This document shows positions 5,310 through 47,648 of a stretch of 64,000 bases of DNA, in pieces. Numbering within the stretch: the stretch's first letter is position 1; each line of letters starts with the position of its first letter. The translations under genes were made by a program, and so were the position numbers. The notes beneath the pieces are model-generated. The model saw only the letters and a list, made by a program, of their open reading frames with translations. It did not search any database and was not told the origin of the DNA. This DNA comes from Baekduia alba (lineage in GTDB: Bacteria; Actinomycetota; Thermoleophilia; Solirubrobacterales; Solirubrobacteraceae). The stretch lies in NCBI RefSeq assembly GCF_028416635.1, contig NZ_CP114013.1, forward strand, positions 2,356,001-2,420,000. The letters run 5' to 3'.

Positions 5310-6554
5310 ATGGCCCGCCGCCGCCATCCCCACCCGATCGAGCACAGCATCTTGATCACCGCCACGCTCTGCCTCCTGGCAGTGGGTGCGGTGATGGTGT
5401 TCTCCGCCTCGTCGTCGCGCTCCCTGCTCTCCGGGCAGGGGGACGGCACGTCGTTCATGGTCAAGTACGTGGCCTACGGCGCGGTCGGGTTCGTCCTCAT
5501 GCAGCTGATCGCGCGGCGCGGCCTGGATCTCGTCCTGCGCGCCACGCAGCCGCTGCTGCTCGCGGCCTTCGTCTGCCTGGTGCTCGTCAAGACGCCGCTC
5601 GGCGTCTCGGTCAACGGCGCGACGCGCTGGCTCGGCGCCGGCCCGCTGGTCTTCCAGCCGTCGGAGCTGATGAAGCTCGCGCTCGTCCTCTACGCCGCCA
5701 AGCTCCTGGCCGAGCGGCCGAAGGTCCTGACGCGCCCGCAATACCTGATGCCCTTGGGCCTGGTCGCCGGCGGGGCGGTCCTGCTGATCGTCTCCCAGCC
5801 CGACCTCGGGACGGCGCTGGTCATCTGCTTCACGATGGCGGCGATGCTCGTCGCGGCGGGCATGCCGATCAAGTGGCTGGGCGTGGCGTCGGGCGGCGGC
5901 GCGATGCTCGTGTTCCTGTTCGCGATGGCCGAGCCGTACCGGCGCGACCGCCTGATGTCGTTCATGGACCCGTGGGCGCACGCCGGCGACGAGGGCTTCC
6001 AGGCGGTGCAGGGCCAGATCGCGCTCGGCTCCGGCGGCCTGTTCGGTCGCGGGCTCGGCCAGTCGCTGCAGAAGAACCTGTTCCTGCCCGAGGCCCACAC
6101 GGACTTCATCCTGGCCATCGTCGGCGAGGAGCTCGGCGTCGTCGGGATCTTCGGGATCCTGTTCCTGTACGGGTTGCTCGCCTACGCCGGCCTGCGGGTC
6201 GCCAAGAACGCGCGCGGCACCTACGCCAAGCTCGTCGCCGCCGGGATCACGTCGCTGTTCCTCTCCCAGGCGATGTTGAACGTCTTCACCGTGCTGGGCC
6301 TGGCGCCGCTGACCGGCGTGCCGCTGCCGTTCATCTCCTACGGGTCGACCAACCTCGTCGTGTTGCTCGTCGGGATGGGCATCCTGCTCAACGTCGCCAG
6401 CGGCGGCAACGTGAAGCTGCGCGCCGTCCCGGATGTGGCAGGGTCCAGGAGCAATGGCAGCACCCGGAGCAGCACCGACGATCCTGATCGCGGCCGGCGG
6501 GACGGCGGGGCACGTCGTTCCGGCGCTGGCGGTCGCCGACGCGCTGCGGGCTGA
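5310..6554 (+). CDS. ftsW: Peptidoglycan glycosyltransferase FtsW (SEDS family)
   Basis: Polytopic membrane glycosyltransferase of the divisome, polymerising lipid II with a partner class B PBP (not in the window). The product is 414 aa with about ten hydrophobic segments. Typical SEDS features are VMVFSASSSRSL near the N-terminus, VNGATRWLGAGPLVFQPSE, ISQPDLGTALVI-like text, EAHTDFILAIVGEELG, and near the end TGVPLPFISYGSTNLV. The conserved core ends near residue 370. The last ~35 residues are a polar Ser/Arg/Gly-rich tail encoded in sequence shared out of frame with the 5' end of murG (overlap 101 bp), which is unusually long. Confidence 0.94.
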   Translation: MARRRHPHPIEHSILITATLCLLAVGAVMVFSASSSRSLLSGQGDGTSFMVKYVAYGAVGFVLMQLIARRGLDLVLRATQPLLLAAFVCLVLVKTPLGVSVNGATRWLGAGPLVFQPSELMKLALVLYAAKLLAERPKVLTRPQYLMPLGLVAGGAVLLIVSQPDLGTALVICFTMAAMLVAAGMPIKWLGVASGGGAMLVFLFAMAEPYRRDRLMSFMDPWAHAGDEGFQAVQGQIALGSGGLFGRGLGQSLQKNLFLPEAHTDFILAIVGEELGVVGIFGILFLYGLLAYAGLRVAKNARGTYAKLVAAGITSLFLSQAMLNVFTVLGLAPLTGVPLPFISYGSTNLVVLLVGMGILLNVASGGNVKLRAVPDVAGSRSNGSTRSSTDDPDRGRRDGGARRSGAGGRRRAAG

Positions 6555-7536
6555 GGCCGGCGCGAACGTCGTCTTCGTCGGCGGGGAGCGGGCCGAGAAG
6601 ACCCTGGTTCCGGAGGCCGGCTACGAGCTGCGCCCGATCGCCGTGGAGGGGCTGAGCCGGACCAACCCGCTGAAGGCGGCGCGCGGTGCGCTGAAGGCCG
6701 CGACGGCCGTGCGGACCGCCCAGAAGATCCTGCGCGACGTGCGGCCCGACGCCGTGATGGGCGGCGGCGGCTACGTCGCCGGGCCCGTCGGCGCGGCGGC
6801 CGCGGCGGGGCGGATCCCGCTCGTGCTGACCGAGGCCGATTCGCACCTCGGCCTGACCAACCGGCTGCTGGCGCGGGCGGCGAGGCGCGTCTGCCTCGCG
6901 TTCCCGATCGCCGGCCGCGACGACCCGGACAAGTACCTGGTGACCGGCCGGCCGGTGCCGCCGCCGGTGACCGACCGCGACGGCGCGCGCGCCAGGTTCG
7001 GGCTCGGCGCCGGCGACACGTGCGTCCTGGTCTTCGGTGGCTCGCTCGGCGCGCGCTCGATCAACGAGGCATCGATCGACGCGTTCCGCGACGCCCCGTT
7101 CCGGGTCATCCACGCGTGCGGGACGCGCGACTACGCGGCGCTGCGCGAGCGCCTCGGGACGCCGCCGCCCGCCAACTACGACCTGCGCGAGTACATCACC
7201 CCGTTCGGGGACGCCCTGGCCGCGGCGGACCTCACGGTCGCCCGCGCCGGCGGCTCGATCTTCGAGGTCGCCGCGCACGGCCTGCCGGCGGTCCTGGTCC
7301 CGTACCCGCACGCCGCCGCCGACCACCAGACGGCCAACGCCCAGTGGATGGTCGACGCGGGCGCAGCGGTCCTGGTCCGCGACGGCGACGTGACGCCGCA
7401 GCGGCTGGACGAGGTCGTCGGCGGTCTGCTGCGCGACACCGCGAAGCTCGCGGCGATGGCCGCGGCGTCGCGGGGGCTGGCGCGGCCGGACGCGGCGCGC
7501 GACATCGCGCGCGAGATCCTGGCGGCTGCGGCATGA
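6454..7536 (+). CDS. murG: UDP-GlcNAc:lipid I N-acetylglucosaminyltransferase MurG
   Basis: Peripheral membrane glycosyltransferase (GT28) that converts lipid I to lipid II. The product is 360 aa. It shows ILIAAGGTAGHVVPALA at the N-terminus, GGGGYVAGPVG, the second-domain glycine loop VFGGSLGARSIN, RAGGSIFEVAAHGLP and VPYPHAAADHQTANA. ATG 6454 is chosen because it is preceded by AGGAG at a good distance and directly abuts the conserved glycine-rich start; an ATG at 6433 would add seven residues. The last codons and the stop lie within the first copy of an 89-bp tandem repeat. Confidence 0.95.
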   Translation: MAAPGAAPTILIAAGGTAGHVVPALAVADALRAEAGANVVFVGGERAEKTLVPEAGYELRPIAVEGLSRTNPLKAARGALKAATAVRTAQKILRDVRPDAVMGGGGYVAGPVGAAAAAGRIPLVLTEADSHLGLTNRLLARAARRVCLAFPIAGRDDPDKYLVTGRPVPPPVTDRDGARARFGLGAGDTCVLVFGGSLGARSINEASIDAFRDAPFRVIHACGTRDYAALRERLGTPPPANYDLREYITPFGDALAAADLTVARAGGSIFEVAAHGLPAVLVPYPHAAADHQTANAQWMVDAGAAVLVRDGDVTPQRLDEVVGGLLRDTAKLAAMAAASRGLARPDAARDIAREILAAAA

Positions 7537-7698
7537 CTCGGCCAGAGGCCTCGCAAGCCGGGCGGCAGCTCGCCCAGGGGCTCGCTCCCGCGGTATCGGG
7601 CGGCCATGGGGCGGCTGCGGCATGACTCGGCCAGAGGCCTCGCAAGCCGGGCGGCAGCTCGCCCAGGGGCTCGCTCCCGCGGTCTCGGGCGACCATGG
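7521..7698 (+). repeat. 89-bp tandem duplication joining murG and murC
   Basis: Two adjacent copies, 7521-7609 and 7610-7698, differ at only two positions (7595 versus 7684, and 7602 versus 7691). Each copy starts with GGCGGCTGCGGCATGA, which is the murG 3' end and stop in copy one. Each ends with the palindrome CCATGG, which in copy two supplies the ATG of murC. Read on the minus strand, each copy encodes a peptide containing GSEPLGELPPGLRGLWPSHA, running from the CCATGG. Bases 7561-7591 and 7650-7680 are the inverse of an identical 31-bp block inside fmt at 46762-46792. The near identity suggests a recent duplication of a dispersed element. Confidence 0.9.
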
Positions 7699-9005
7699 CT
7701 GACCGGTTGCCGTGGGAGGGCCGGAAGGTCCACCTCGTCGGCATCGGCGGCGCGGGCATGTCGGGTTGGGCGCGGGTCGCGGTGCAGCTCGGCGCCACCG
7801 TCAGCGGCAGCGACCGCGCCGAGTCGCCGGCGCTCGACAAGCTGCGGGCGCTCGGCGTCGACGTCCACGTCGGGCACGCCGCGGCCAACGTCCCCGACGG
7901 CGCCGACGTCTTCTTCTCGACCGCGATCCTGACCGACAACCCGGAGCGCGTCCCCGGCGCCCAGCCGCGTGCCGAGCTGCTGCGGGAGCTGACGTCGCTG
8001 AAGCGCGTCATCGCGATCGCCGGCGCGCACGGCAAGACCACGACGACCTCGATGACGGCCCACGCGCTGCTCGGCGCGGGCGCGAGCCCCGGCTACCTCA
8101 TCGGCGGCGCGCTGCGCACGACCGGCGAGAACGCGGACTGGGGTGCGGGGGAGTGGCTCGTGGTCGAGGCCGACGAGTCGGACCGCTCGATGCTGGCGCT
8201 CGACGTCGACGTCGCGGTCGTCCTCAACATCGAGCTCGACCACCACGCGACCTATGGCGGCTCGCTCGCCGGCCTGCACGCGGCGTTCGACGAGTTCCGC
8301 GCCCACGCCCACGCCGCGCGCGTCGTCGCACCGGAGCTCGCGCGTGCGGGCGACGAGGTCTTCTCCGTCACCGACCTCAGGCTCGAACCCGGCGGCTCCC
8401 GGTTCACCTGGCGCGGCCACGCGGTCGCCCTCCAGGTCCCCGGCGAGCACAACGCCCGCAACGCCGCCGCCGCGCTGGAGGCGATCCGCGCCGCCGGCGC
8501 CGCCGACGAGGCCGCGGCGGTCGCGGCGCTCGCGTCGTTCGCCGGCGCGGGCCGGCGGTTCGAGCGGCTGGGCGAGACCGCGTGCGGCGCGCTCGTCGTC
8601 GACGACTACGCCCACCACCCGACCGAGGTCGCCGCCACGATCGCCGCGGCGCGCTCCCTGCGGCCCCGTCGCCTCGTCGCCGTCTTCCAGCCCCACCTCT
8701 ACAGCCGCACCCAGGAGCTCCACCGCGAGTTCGGCGCCGCGCTGGCCCAGGCCGACGTCGCGGTCGCGCTCGACGTCTACCCGGCCCGCGAGCAGGCCGC
8801 GGACTTCCCGGGCGTCACCGGCCGCCTCATCGCCGAGGCGGCGGCCGACCACGCCGGTGGCCGGCCGGTCTTCTGGCTGCCGACGCTCGACACCGCCTAC
8901 TCCGTCCTGGCGCCCCGACTGCGCGCCGGCGACCTCGTGCTCGTGCTGGGCGCGGGCGACGTCGACCGCCTCGGCCGGCGGCTCGTCGCGGCGTCGCCGT
9001 CCTGA
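7695..9005 (+). CDS. murC: UDP-N-acetylmuramate:L-alanine ligase MurC
   Basis: Cytoplasmic ligase that adds L-alanine to UDP-MurNAc, the first stem-peptide step. The product is 436 aa. Seen: VHLVGIGGAGMSGWA near residue 12, GAHGKTTTTSMTAHALL (ATP loop), VVEADESDRSM, PGEHNARNAAAAL and DDYAHHPTEVAATI, all MurC hallmarks. The ATG sits in the CCATGG that ends the second copy of the 89-bp repeat, and no Shine-Dalgarno sequence is evident before it. Gene order murG-murC-ftsQ is typical of actinobacterial dcw clusters. Confidence 0.96.
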   Translation: MADRLPWEGRKVHLVGIGGAGMSGWARVAVQLGATVSGSDRAESPALDKLRALGVDVHVGHAAANVPDGADVFFSTAILTDNPERVPGAQPRAELLRELTSLKRVIAIAGAHGKTTTTSMTAHALLGAGASPGYLIGGALRTTGENADWGAGEWLVVEADESDRSMLALDVDVAVVLNIELDHHATYGGSLAGLHAAFDEFRAHAHAARVVAPELARAGDEVFSVTDLRLEPGGSRFTWRGHAVALQVPGEHNARNAAAALEAIRAAGAADEAAAVAALASFAGAGRRFERLGETACGALVVDDYAHHPTEVAATIAAARSLRPRRLVAVFQPHLYSRTQELHREFGAALAQADVAVALDVYPAREQAADFPGVTGRLIAEAAADHAGGRPVFWLPTLDTAYSVLAPRLRAGDLVLVLGAGDVDRLGRRLVAASPS

Positions 9006-46135: not shown

Positions 46136-46732
46136 GTGGCACAGCACCACGAAGAGCTCGACGAGGCTCCGGAGCCCGTCACCACCATCGATCCGGAGAC
46201 CGCGGCCCGCCGTCGCGCCGCGCTCAAGCACGTGCGCAAGTTCGGCGATCCCGTGCTGCGCTCCAAGGCGCGCGTCGTCGATCGCTTCGACGACGAGCTG
46301 CGCGACGAGATCGCGCGCATGGGCGTCCTGATGCACGACGCCTACGGGATCGGGCTCGCGGCGACGCAGGTCGGGATCCTGCACCGCGTGCTCGTCTACC
46401 GCGTCGAGCCCGACAGCCCGGTCAACGCGCTCGTCAACCCCGAGATCGAGTGGACGTCCAAGGACAAGGAGTGGGCTGAGGAGGGCTGCCTGAGCCTGCC
46501 CGCCGTCCACGTCGACGTCGAGCGCCCGACGTACGTCCGCGTCAGCGCCCAGGACGAGCAGGGCGAGAAGATCCTCGTCGAGGCCTCCGGGCTCGAGGCG
46601 CGCGTGATCCAGCACGAGATCGACCACCTCGACGGCGTCCTGATCCTCGACCGCACCTCGCGCGACCAGCGCAAGGAGGGCATGCGCGCGCTGCGCGCCG
46701 CCCTCGAGGCCGAAGAGGACGACGCGGCCTAG
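46136..46732 (+). CDS. def: Peptide deformylase
   Basis: Metalloenzyme that removes the formyl group from nascent proteins. The product is 198 aa. The three family motifs are present: GIGLAATQVGI, EEGCLSLPAV (metal Cys) and HEIDHLDGVL (metal His pair and catalytic Glu). An N-terminal extension of about 35 residues (EELDEAPEPVTTIDPETAAR) is not part of the domain. GTG 46136 is chosen by its TANNNT box. fmt follows after 4 nt, so deformylase and formyltransferase are co-expressed. Confidence 0.95.
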   Translation: MAQHHEELDEAPEPVTTIDPETAARRRAALKHVRKFGDPVLRSKARVVDRFDDELRDEIARMGVLMHDAYGIGLAATQVGILHRVLVYRVEPDSPVNALVNPEIEWTSKDKEWAEEGCLSLPAVHVDVERPTYVRVSAQDEQGEKILVEASGLEARVIQHEIDHLDGVLILDRTSRDQRKEGMRALRAALEAEEDDAA

Positions 46733-46736
46733 CGCC

Positions 46737-47648
46737 ATGGCGGCCGACGCTGCCGACGGCAGCGGGAGCGAGCCCCTGGGCGAGCTGCCGCCGCGGAACG
46801 AGCCCGCACGGCGAGGCTCCGCCATCGTCTACCTCGGGACCAGCGACTTCGCGGCGTCCGTGCTGCGGGCGCTCGCCGACGGCCCGAACCGGCCCGCGCT
46901 CGTAGTCACGCGGCCCGACGCCAAGCAGGGGCGGGGGCGCAAGGTCGGGCCGCCACCGGTCGCGGTCGCCGCGCGCGAGCTCGGCATCGACGTCGACCAG
47001 CCCGCGTCGGTCAACGACGAGGCGGCGCGGGCGCGCATCGCCGCGGTCCAGCCGACGGGCGTGATCCTGTGCGCGTTCGGCGCGCTGGTCAAGGAGCCGC
47101 TGCTCAGCGACTACGACATCCTCAACGTGCACCCGTCGCTGCTGCCGCGCTGGCGCGGGGCGGCGCCGGTCGAGCGCGCGATGATGGCCGGCGACGCGCA
47201 GACCGGCGTCTCGATCATGCGCCTGGTCGCCGAGCTGGACGCCGGCCCGGTCTACGCGCAGCGGCCGGAGCCGATCCTGCCGACCGACGACTACGCGACG
47301 CTCGCGGCGCGCCTGCAGGACATCTCGGTGGACCTGCTGCGCCAGGTCCTCGAAGAGCTCCCGACGCCGGAGCCCCAGCCCGATCTCGGCATCACCTACG
47401 CCGACAAGCTCACCGCGGAGGACCGCACGCTGGACCTCACGCGCCCGCCGGAGGAGAACGTCCGGGTCGTCCGCGCGCTGCACCCGCACATCGGCGCCCG
47501 GATCGCGCTGCCCAGCGGCGACTTCCTCGGCGTCCAGGAGGCGTCGATCGCCCTCGACGGCAGCCTCGAGCTCGTCACCGTGCAGCCCGCCGGCGGGCGC
47601 TCGATGGCCTACTCCGAGTACCTGCGCGGCCACGCGCCCGCGGTCTAG
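46737..47648 (+). CDS. fmt: Methionyl-tRNA formyltransferase
   Basis: Formylates initiator Met-tRNA with 10-formyl-THF. The product is 303 aa. The domain begins IVYLGTSDFAASVLRAL; the catalytic region is NVHPSLLPRWRGAAPVERA, with DAGPVYAQ and GITYADKLTAEDR later. The usual protein starts at this IVYLG strand, but here about 28 residues precede it, including GSGSEPLGELPPRNEPARRG. This extension is encoded by a copy of the dispersed repeat also found at 7521-7698. No later in-frame start exists, so the repeat supplies the ATG. Its TAG overlaps the stop of the convergent ABC-F gene. Confidence 0.94.
   Translation: MAADAADGSGSEPLGELPPRNEPARRGSAIVYLGTSDFAASVLRALADGPNRPALVVTRPDAKQGRGRKVGPPPVAVAARELGIDVDQPASVNDEAARARIAAVQPTGVILCAFGALVKEPLLSDYDILNVHPSLLPRWRGAAPVERAMMAGDAQTGVSIMRLVAELDAGPVYAQRPEPILPTDDYATLAARLQDISVDLLRQVLEELPTPEPQPDLGITYADKLTAEDRTLDLTRPPEENVRVVRALHPHIGARIALPSGDFLGVQEASIALDGSLELVTVQPAGGRSMAYSEYLRGHAPAV
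46762..46792 (+). repeat. Dispersed repeat copy inside the 5' end of fmt
   Basis: These 31 bp are identical to the inverse of 7561-7591 and 7650-7680. Similarity also extends upstream to the CCATGGC at 46735 with a few-base insertion. The stretch encodes SGSEPLGELPP in the fmt frame, the same frame and peptide as in the minus-strand reading of the other copies. Confidence 0.85.

Follow-up and report, generated by a model that had tools for sequence, protein, structure and literature searches.

Mycobacterial interspersed repetitive units (MIRU) insert at start codons, coupling an internal open reading frame (ORF) to the gene at -4 nt; the insertion has little effect on that gene, according to the available text of PMC12548453. 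Rickettsia palindromic elements (RPE) are short palindromic repeats that occur in frame within conserved proteins, Gmk included (available text of PMC2229807). RPE are found inside coding sequences, with CGTC at their ends in R. conorii, while repetitive extragenic palindromes (REP) are tagged GTAG or CGTC (both from the available text of PMC3733652). The YPAL or RU-2 element of Yersinia is ~168 bp long, has internal inverted repeats, is not A+T-rich and has no TA ends. Its target-site duplications of 3-26 bp, filled/empty comparisons and some in-frame fusions are described in PMC2229807. This report concerns a short repeat in a 64,000-nucleotide stretch of Baekduia alba (NZ_CP114013.1, positions 2,356,001 to 2,420,000; hereafter the window), where it lies between murG and murC and again ahead of the formyltransferase domain of fmt. 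It is probably a short, non-autonomous, two-hairpin mobile element that inserts at co-oriented stop/start junctions, is often bridged by a mini-ORF, and is sometimes fused to a gene.

Dispersal and structure of the repeat

An identical 31-bp block is found at 46762-46792 on the forward strand and at 7561-7591 and 7650-7680 on the reverse strand, as the first-pass annotation had noted. The genome holding the window (G000) is a single contig of 5,863,246 bases. With up to 3 mismatches the block has 7 matches there, against 0 for the reversed pattern, and its 22-base core has 17 against 0; this is beyond chance. The block belongs to a dispersed element of ~70 nt with two hairpins, of which it is the core. 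A covariance model of 69 positions was built from the copies. The search of G000 scored 150 candidates out of 18,729, which makes the counts lower bounds: at least 45 matches at E<0.01 and at least 73 at E<=10.

The relatives were searched with the same model under stricter filters, with 124 candidates scored per genome. Six of them (G001-G006) belong to the same genus, and the element is present in four of these, with 14 matches in G001, 32 in G003, 9 in G004 and 4 in G006 at E<=0.001; G002 and G005 had 0 at this threshold. Two further members of the family had 1 and 4 matches, and no element match was obtained in the remaining 32 relatives. The copies described below come from a table of 107, drawn from five genomes of the genus (50 of 73 matches in G000, 13 of 14 in G001, 31 of 32 in G003, 9 of 9 in G004, and 4 of 4 in G006). 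Two three-copy tandem arrays are known, L043 (G000:C1:4499013-4499253) and L189 (G001:C1:4204665-4204920); their units measure 86 and 92 bp.

The element had been said to end always at CCATGG, and confinement of the block to fmt and murC had been named as a point that would refute the proposal. CCATGG is found within 45 nt of only 7 of the 107 copies, at varying distances. It was rejected as the end of the element; its distance from the block is 20 nt at fmt and 13 nt in each of the two copies on the murC side. The block is not restricted to these genes and is also found at the N-termini of tsaD and gmk.

The two hairpins adjoin. Each has a variable outer stem and an inner CGAGCC-loop-GGCGAG core, in which facing GA steps form tandem G.A mismatches, as seen in a first alignment of 14 copies made without the covariance model. 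Among 91 copies, GA stands opposite GA in 82 at hairpin 1 and in 49 at hairpin 2. A larger alignment, A2, holds 93 matches (91 distinct) from G000 and six other genomes, fitted to the model, and includes five copies of G016 and G017 that are outside the 107-copy table. In A2, 22 of the 26 pairs show changes on both sides, and the covariation score is 0.291, compared with 0.104 (sd 0.006) after shuffling and at most 0.053 with slid partners. The model-free alignment gives two-sided changes in 8 of 26 pairs vs 6.7 shuffled, and a score of 0.184 vs 0.123. Folding of single RNA copies is not decisive (z of -1.31 at fmt, +0.70 for L026 and -2.22 for L025). Folding of both DNA strands of two copies gave near-equal energies and is therefore silent on which strand matters. 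A second subfamily has Watson-Crick cores (TCGCC..GGCGA or TGGCC..GGCCA) in one or both hairpins (L082, L086-L088, L090, and L091), and some of its copies sit between convergent genes.

Insertion at gene junctions

Of the 107 copies, 99 lie at gene junctions. Co-oriented genes flank 84 of them, 60 antisense and 24 sense to the genes (p 1.1e-4). Three were called divergent, one of which (L047) is tandem on inspection; one weak copy (L089) was called inside a gene, and 7 are unclear. For comparison, the gene junctions of the window are 45 tandem, 9 convergent, and 8 divergent. The upstream gene ends in an RTGA stop at 36 of the 84 tandem copies, compared with 12 of 61 window genes.

Empty sites were sought for 19 insertions by fetching, from as many as six genomes of the genus, the region 5' of the gene that matches the downstream one. 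L053 has no usable downstream gene and was excluded. Of 80 loci fetched, 78 were used; L308 and L309 were removed, one repeating L294 and the other being an irrelevant junction. By model and by eye, 72 of these 78 loci are without the element, the loci being matched by the downstream gene only, such that the upstream gene may differ in some. This count includes L233, whose E 0.49 match was not judged an element. Five loci hold the element at E<0.001, and L237 is a degenerate copy (E 0.23). At about 14 of the 19 insertions, the relatives' gene pairs overlap by RTGA or TGATG, as judged by eye. Three insertions are common to different species: L051/L254 (G004), L056/L269 (G003), and L058/L274 (G001). 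The idea of a short mobile or duplicating element agrees with both the dispersal and the empty sites.

Filled sites often show the stop/start overlap on both sides (by eye), and the flanks are duplicated at several of them. Copies of the flank are found on both sides, at the codons, as CGGCATGA (L073), CGCCTGATGC (L075), and CGTGGTGAACG (L058); further cases are CGTGAGC (L051), TGAGCA (L046), and GTGAGT (L061). A relative's locus, L291, has CGGCATGA once and exact, and another, L299, has CGCCTGATGC once with one mismatch. Flank duplication was tested in 44 non-array copies, 6 array copies of 50 having been removed, with 300 shuffled pairings as the control. A flank match of at least 8 bp was found in 7 of the 44, against 0.86 (maximum 5) when shuffled. 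A three-way test that included the relatives covered 18 sites after one array of 19 was removed; a match of at least 6 bases was present at 11 of the 18, against 3.8 (maximum 9) shuffled. By eye, duplication lengths vary from 6 to 11 bp, and insertion into an overlap with duplication of that overlap is clearest at 6-7 of 18 insertions, a subset. The possibility that the repeat makes the start codon at L055, with an ATG in hairpin 1, was rejected: relatives begin at the codon right after the element.

A resident functional RNA or DNA hairpin, such as an mRNA stabiliser, attenuator or terminator that is not primarily mobile, is an improbable alternative. Strong pair covariation, the antisense bias, which could speak for a role, and the insertions common to different species agree with it, as do junctions that are almost only tandem or convergent (84 + 12 vs 3 divergent of 107). 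Against it stand the 72 of 78 matching loci that lack the element, the duplicated flanks, the use of both orientations, and the lack of any Rfam family reaching its gathering score within the window. The element may have a secondary role as a functional hairpin beside its mobility.

Under the mobile-element reading, the element, ~80-95 bp with its flanks, would insert typically where a stop and a start overlap (RTGA or TGATG). Insertion would duplicate the overlap, such that neither the stop of the upstream gene nor the start of the downstream gene is lost. Many copies do hold an open frame of ~27-32 codons between the left RTG and the right TGA. Such a frame could let a ribosome that ends the upstream gene re-start on the mini-ORF and then on the downstream gene, which would keep translational coupling across the insert. 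The mini-ORFs are predicted to be translated, and coupling is presumably the reason for the choice of site.

The reading frame is biased. Among 18 copies with RTGA at both ends, of which L051 and L179 are one shared insertion, 15 keep an in-frame ORF, usually of 27-32 codons (1/3 expected, p 1.9e-5). The in-frame spacings are 80, 86, 89, 92, 107/116, and 116, and the frame is thus kept across lengths and in both orientations. In 12 of 32 RTGA-stop copies, the ORF ends exactly at -4 from the called start. A permissive script was applied to the tandem copies whose gap does not exceed 220 nt, 74 in number after removal of 10 of 84 with a larger gap. It classed 24 as coupled, with a frame from the upstream stop across the element to the downstream start; L077 and L327 among them are long frames and not mini-ORFs. 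A further 8 were scored as fused, 6 as running through and 5 as short, and in 31 the upstream stop has no start codon. The classes have their quirks: the murG-murC copies were scored as running through and short, their relay being read by eye, and the gmk copy (L065) was placed among those without a start at the stop, its ATG being a few nt past the stop.

In antisense copies, GGGGAG or GAGGAGG occurs immediately 5' of the downstream start, at the edge of the element (e.g., L046, L051, L058, L172, and L333). A Shine-Dalgarno-like 4-mer is present in 19 of 40 antisense copies and in 14 of 61 window genes (p 0.016). In a stricter test, the complement is carried by 14 of the 60 copies in antisense and by 1 of the 24 in sense (p 0.056). 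The signal could be an element-borne ribosome-binding site or could reflect selection on the leader.

It is conceivable, though held only tentatively, that the element is 'translationally transparent': its length and frame would be kept such that, placed in a stop/start overlap, it bridges coupled genes by a relay mini-ORF in either orientation. Its mover would be a mechanism that targets such junctions and leaves behind duplications of variable length, and the element would have become part of Fmt, TsaD, and Gmk.

The fmt, tsaD, gmk and murC loci

At def-fmt, at rimI-tsaD, and upstream of gmk, the frame runs without a stop up to the domain and would add an N-terminal extension of 28-31 residues, starting at an ATG before the element. 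No alternative ATG, GTG or TTG precedes the domains of fmt, tsaD, and gmk.

The def gene, for peptide deformylase, occupies 46136..46732 on the forward strand and ends with TAG at 46730-46732. The methionyl-tRNA formyltransferase gene fmt follows at 46737..47648 on the same strand; its best NCBIfam match is TIGR00460, below cut-off. Its first 87 nt (46737..46823, forward) are an in-frame insert of 29 codons, and residues 1-29 are outside the conserved protein. The frame from ATG 46737 reads MAADAADGSGSEPLGELPPRNEPARRGSA-IVYLGTSDF, and Formyl_trans_N begins at residue 30. The first 22 nt of the insert are outside the conserved two-hairpin unit, which lies at 46759..46827 on the forward strand (model R1, 67.4 bits). 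Hairpin 1, at 46762..46791, has the CGAGCC..GGCGAG core with tandem G.A and a CCTG loop, and hairpin 2, at 46793..46822, has an outer stem of GCGGA..TCCGC (both forward). A possible target-site duplication, CGCCAT, occurs on the forward strand at 46733..46738, where it holds the AT of the fmt ATG, and at 46820..46825, where the conserved fmt sequence begins.

The first-pass annotation had the repeat supply both the start codon and the N-terminus of fmt. The N-terminal part holds, as residues 1-29 come from the insert. The start codon does not come from the repeat; the ATG is 22 nt before the conserved unit, four nt after the def stop, and near the fmt start of same-genus relatives. It is also the sole in-frame ATG, GTG or TTG in the first 120 nt of fmt, and fmt is predicted to initiate there. 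In our own reading, the old start stayed on the left, the right-hand copy is no longer an ATG, and the mini-ORF was fused to fmt. Locus L340 (G004) has the same frame, NEPLGGLPPRNERSTRGCA, still closed by a TGA at the next ATG, and looks like the unfused state of the fmt-type frame.

Relatives had been expected to lack the extension, and none was seen: 40 genomes had an fmt match, and in the 29 loci read no element-like sequence precedes the conserved fmt start. The element model found nothing in the six same-genus fmt loci. In two genomes, fmt could start further upstream, ~22 codons in the distant G024 (L158) and ~10 codons in G003 (L142), with unrelated sequence in both. The fmt search alignments in G001 and G006 reach back to query residue 19. 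The closest named fmt relatives come from metagenome-assembled genomes, near-identical records possibly being omitted; those at 87 and 83% carry the label Conexibacter and that at 72% the label Solirubrobacterales, which places the window with a Conexibacter-like bacterium of the Solirubrobacterales.

The element at fmt could instead be an untranslated leader, with initiation at the non-canonical ATC 46824 or at a CTG and no peptide made. This is unlikely. A survey does warn that many REPs at predicted N-termini may be non-coding (available text of PMC3733652). However, the 87 nt are exactly 29 stop-free codons, 46737 is the only canonical in-frame start in 120 nt, and the same arrangement is seen at tsaD and gmk, with a single start each.

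At the rimI-tsaD junction of G000, TsaD begins MSDRALPPRVAEASPPGEQPPRDEPAGRGSV, and its domain starts from residue 32. The fusion is carried by L072 (G000:C1:3388084-3388153) and by L325 in G003, and the two element sequences differ. The tsaD loci of G001, G005, and G006 are without the element; for G002 and G004 the search gave no tsaD locus. In Gmk, 28 residues precede the domain, most of them from the element (L065, G000:C1:2954891-2954961). None of the six same-genus relatives has the element at the gmk N-terminus; a match at E 0.08 (L356) lies inside a gmk coding sequence. In both the tsaD and gmk fusions, there is one in-frame ATG, GTG or TTG in the first 120 nt. Gmk carries the element here and an RPE in Rickettsia. 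Other fused rows are weaker, as L085, L086, and L321 could start further down. At L057 and L064, the upstream proteins are prolonged at the C-terminus through the element to a TGA overlapping the next start; at L064, the relatives' upstream protein ends before the element.

The murG gene (6433..7536) and the murC gene (7695..9005), both on the forward strand, are separated by two two-hairpin units on the reverse strand, at 7525..7594 and 7614..7683. The copies belong to an 89-bp unit present twice in tandem at 7521..7698 (7521-7609 and 7610-7698, 98% alike), which takes in 16 bp of the murG 3' end; as one tandem duplication, they are probably not independent insertions. The first mini-ORF (7533..7625, forward, 30 codons) has its ATG in murG's ATGA stop and its TGA in the ATGA of copy 2. 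The second (7622..7702, forward, 26 codons) shares 8 nt with murC, its TGA lying within the first murC codons, as read from the sequence. The repeat was thought to give murC its start through CCATGG. The murC ATG starts 12 nt past the repeat unit, and murG and murC appear, by eye, to overlap by RTGA in G001, G002, G005, and G006, the four genomes with a murC match. The wider proposal, that translation initiation was 'captured' for two essential genes, is not borne out, as many insertions leave the neighbours their own stop and start codons.

Weighing the reading against rivals and known systems

Several points weigh against an element that inserts at coupled junctions and duplicates them. Genes were called with the author's own codon-usage script. 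The copy counts are not all independent, because some copies are common to several species by descent. A2 leans towards structure, because it was fitted to the model. Convergent genes flank 12 of the 107 copies, and RTGA downstream starts are mildly enriched (37 of 84 tandem copies vs 18 of 61 window genes). Among the 19 compared insertions, the relatives' genes do not overlap at L055, L056, and L067, and L066 is unclear (by eye). Three of the seven long flank matches, at L055, L061 (GGCGCCGC), and L071, are off the expected codons and look coincidental. At 7 bases or more, the three-way test gives 6 of 18 vs 1.98 (maximum 7) shuffled, which is inside the shuffled range. The two CGCCAT copies at fmt, 87 nt apart, are a 6-bp match that by itself is not significant. 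The +2 frame is also stop-free in 16 of the 18 RTGA-flanked copies, and openness itself is therefore weak evidence. Coupling is not universal, because 31 of 74 copies have no start at the stop and 5 are short.

A classical REP/REPIN family with a REP-associated Y1 tyrosine transposase (RAYT) as its mover is very unlikely. Paired imperfect palindromes, tandem arrays and high copy number fit it, as does the preference for tandem and convergent junctions described for REPs (available text of PMC3733652), and the genome has one Y1_Tnp gene (L042). However, there is no clear tag near the hairpin foot. In the 107 copies, GTAG occurs 3 times vs 8.4 expected, CGTC 18 vs 36.3, and GACG 23 vs 36.1. CTAC, the complement of GTAG, occurs near the foot 12 times vs 4.8 expected and may reflect TAG stops on the other strand. 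The 3.3-kb locus of the Y1 gene has no element match up to E 10. The searches of G002 and G005 gave Y1 genes but no element; those of G001, a single contig, gave 14 copies and no Y1 gene. RAYT as the mover was rejected, as the Y1 distribution does not follow the element. To our knowledge, a Y1 transposase would not be expected to duplicate its target site, and the flanks here are duplicated at several sites.

A reverse transcriptase, considered on account of the variable-length duplications, was dismissed because the RVT_1 distribution does not fit (found in G000 (L352), G005, G006, G017, and G024, and not in G001-G004, of which G002-G004 are incomplete). Plasmid or phage carriage was also rejected: the murG-murC region, searched against plasmids only, and the fmt region, searched against phages only, were both without a match. 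A search of open-licence literature, in which subscription papers are mostly absent, brought up no account of this repeat for Conexibacter or Solirubrobacterales.

If the mobile-element reading is right, the MIRU lifestyle, as mobile DNA in the overlap of coupled genes, would reach beyond mycobacteria. Hairpins, mini-ORF, duplications, and empty sites are readable together in one genus. The element would show concretely how mobile DNA can give essential genes new protein N-termini, and would allow tests of re-initiation across an inserted relay ORF. It is also a warning for annotation: the N-termini of fmt, tsaD, and gmk contain element sequence, and some intergenic ORFs of 27-32 codons are element copies.

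As far as the available descriptions go, REP, bacterial interspersed mosaic elements (BIME) and REPINs share with this element imperfect palindromes in doublets, tandem clusters, and tandem or convergent junctions; they also give neighbours stop codons, and some REPs lie within ORFs. They differ in that the element has no clear GTAG/CGTC tag, has target duplications, and does not fit the Y1 transposase distribution. Miniature inverted-repeat transposable elements (MITE) have terminal inverted repeats and a TA or fixed-length duplication. The duplications here vary from 6 to 11 bp. The first-pass annotation likened the repeat to the Rickettsia palindromic elements. This is fair as to effect, but mycobacterial MIRU are closer. 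RPE lie within coding regions, whereas this element shows junction insertion and terminal fusions, with 1 of 107 copies (weak) inside a gene.

YPAL shares variable-length target duplications and internal inverted repeats with the element. Both are also not A+T-rich, are without TA ends, have filled and empty sites to compare, and are in some cases fused in frame. YPAL is ~168 bp, compared with a 69-position unit here, and its targets are at or beside dyad symmetries; a preference for stop/start overlaps is not stated for it in the available text of PMC2229807.

Sequence homology aside, the element resembles MIRU in how it appears to work, and MIRU are the best match in target and mini-ORF. MIRU reportedly duplicate DTGA stop/start overlaps, an account said to go back to Supply et al. 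in 1997. The element is likewise a short unit (69 model positions) with many genomic copies (at least 45 at E<0.01). Insertion at a stop/start overlap, with its duplication, is seen in a subset of copies. An internal ORF coupled at -4 is also present (15 of 18 in frame), although many other copies do not have it. Set beside MIRU by description, the element here has covarying hairpins with tandem G.A cores, is used in both orientations, and is fused to fmt, tsaD, and gmk.
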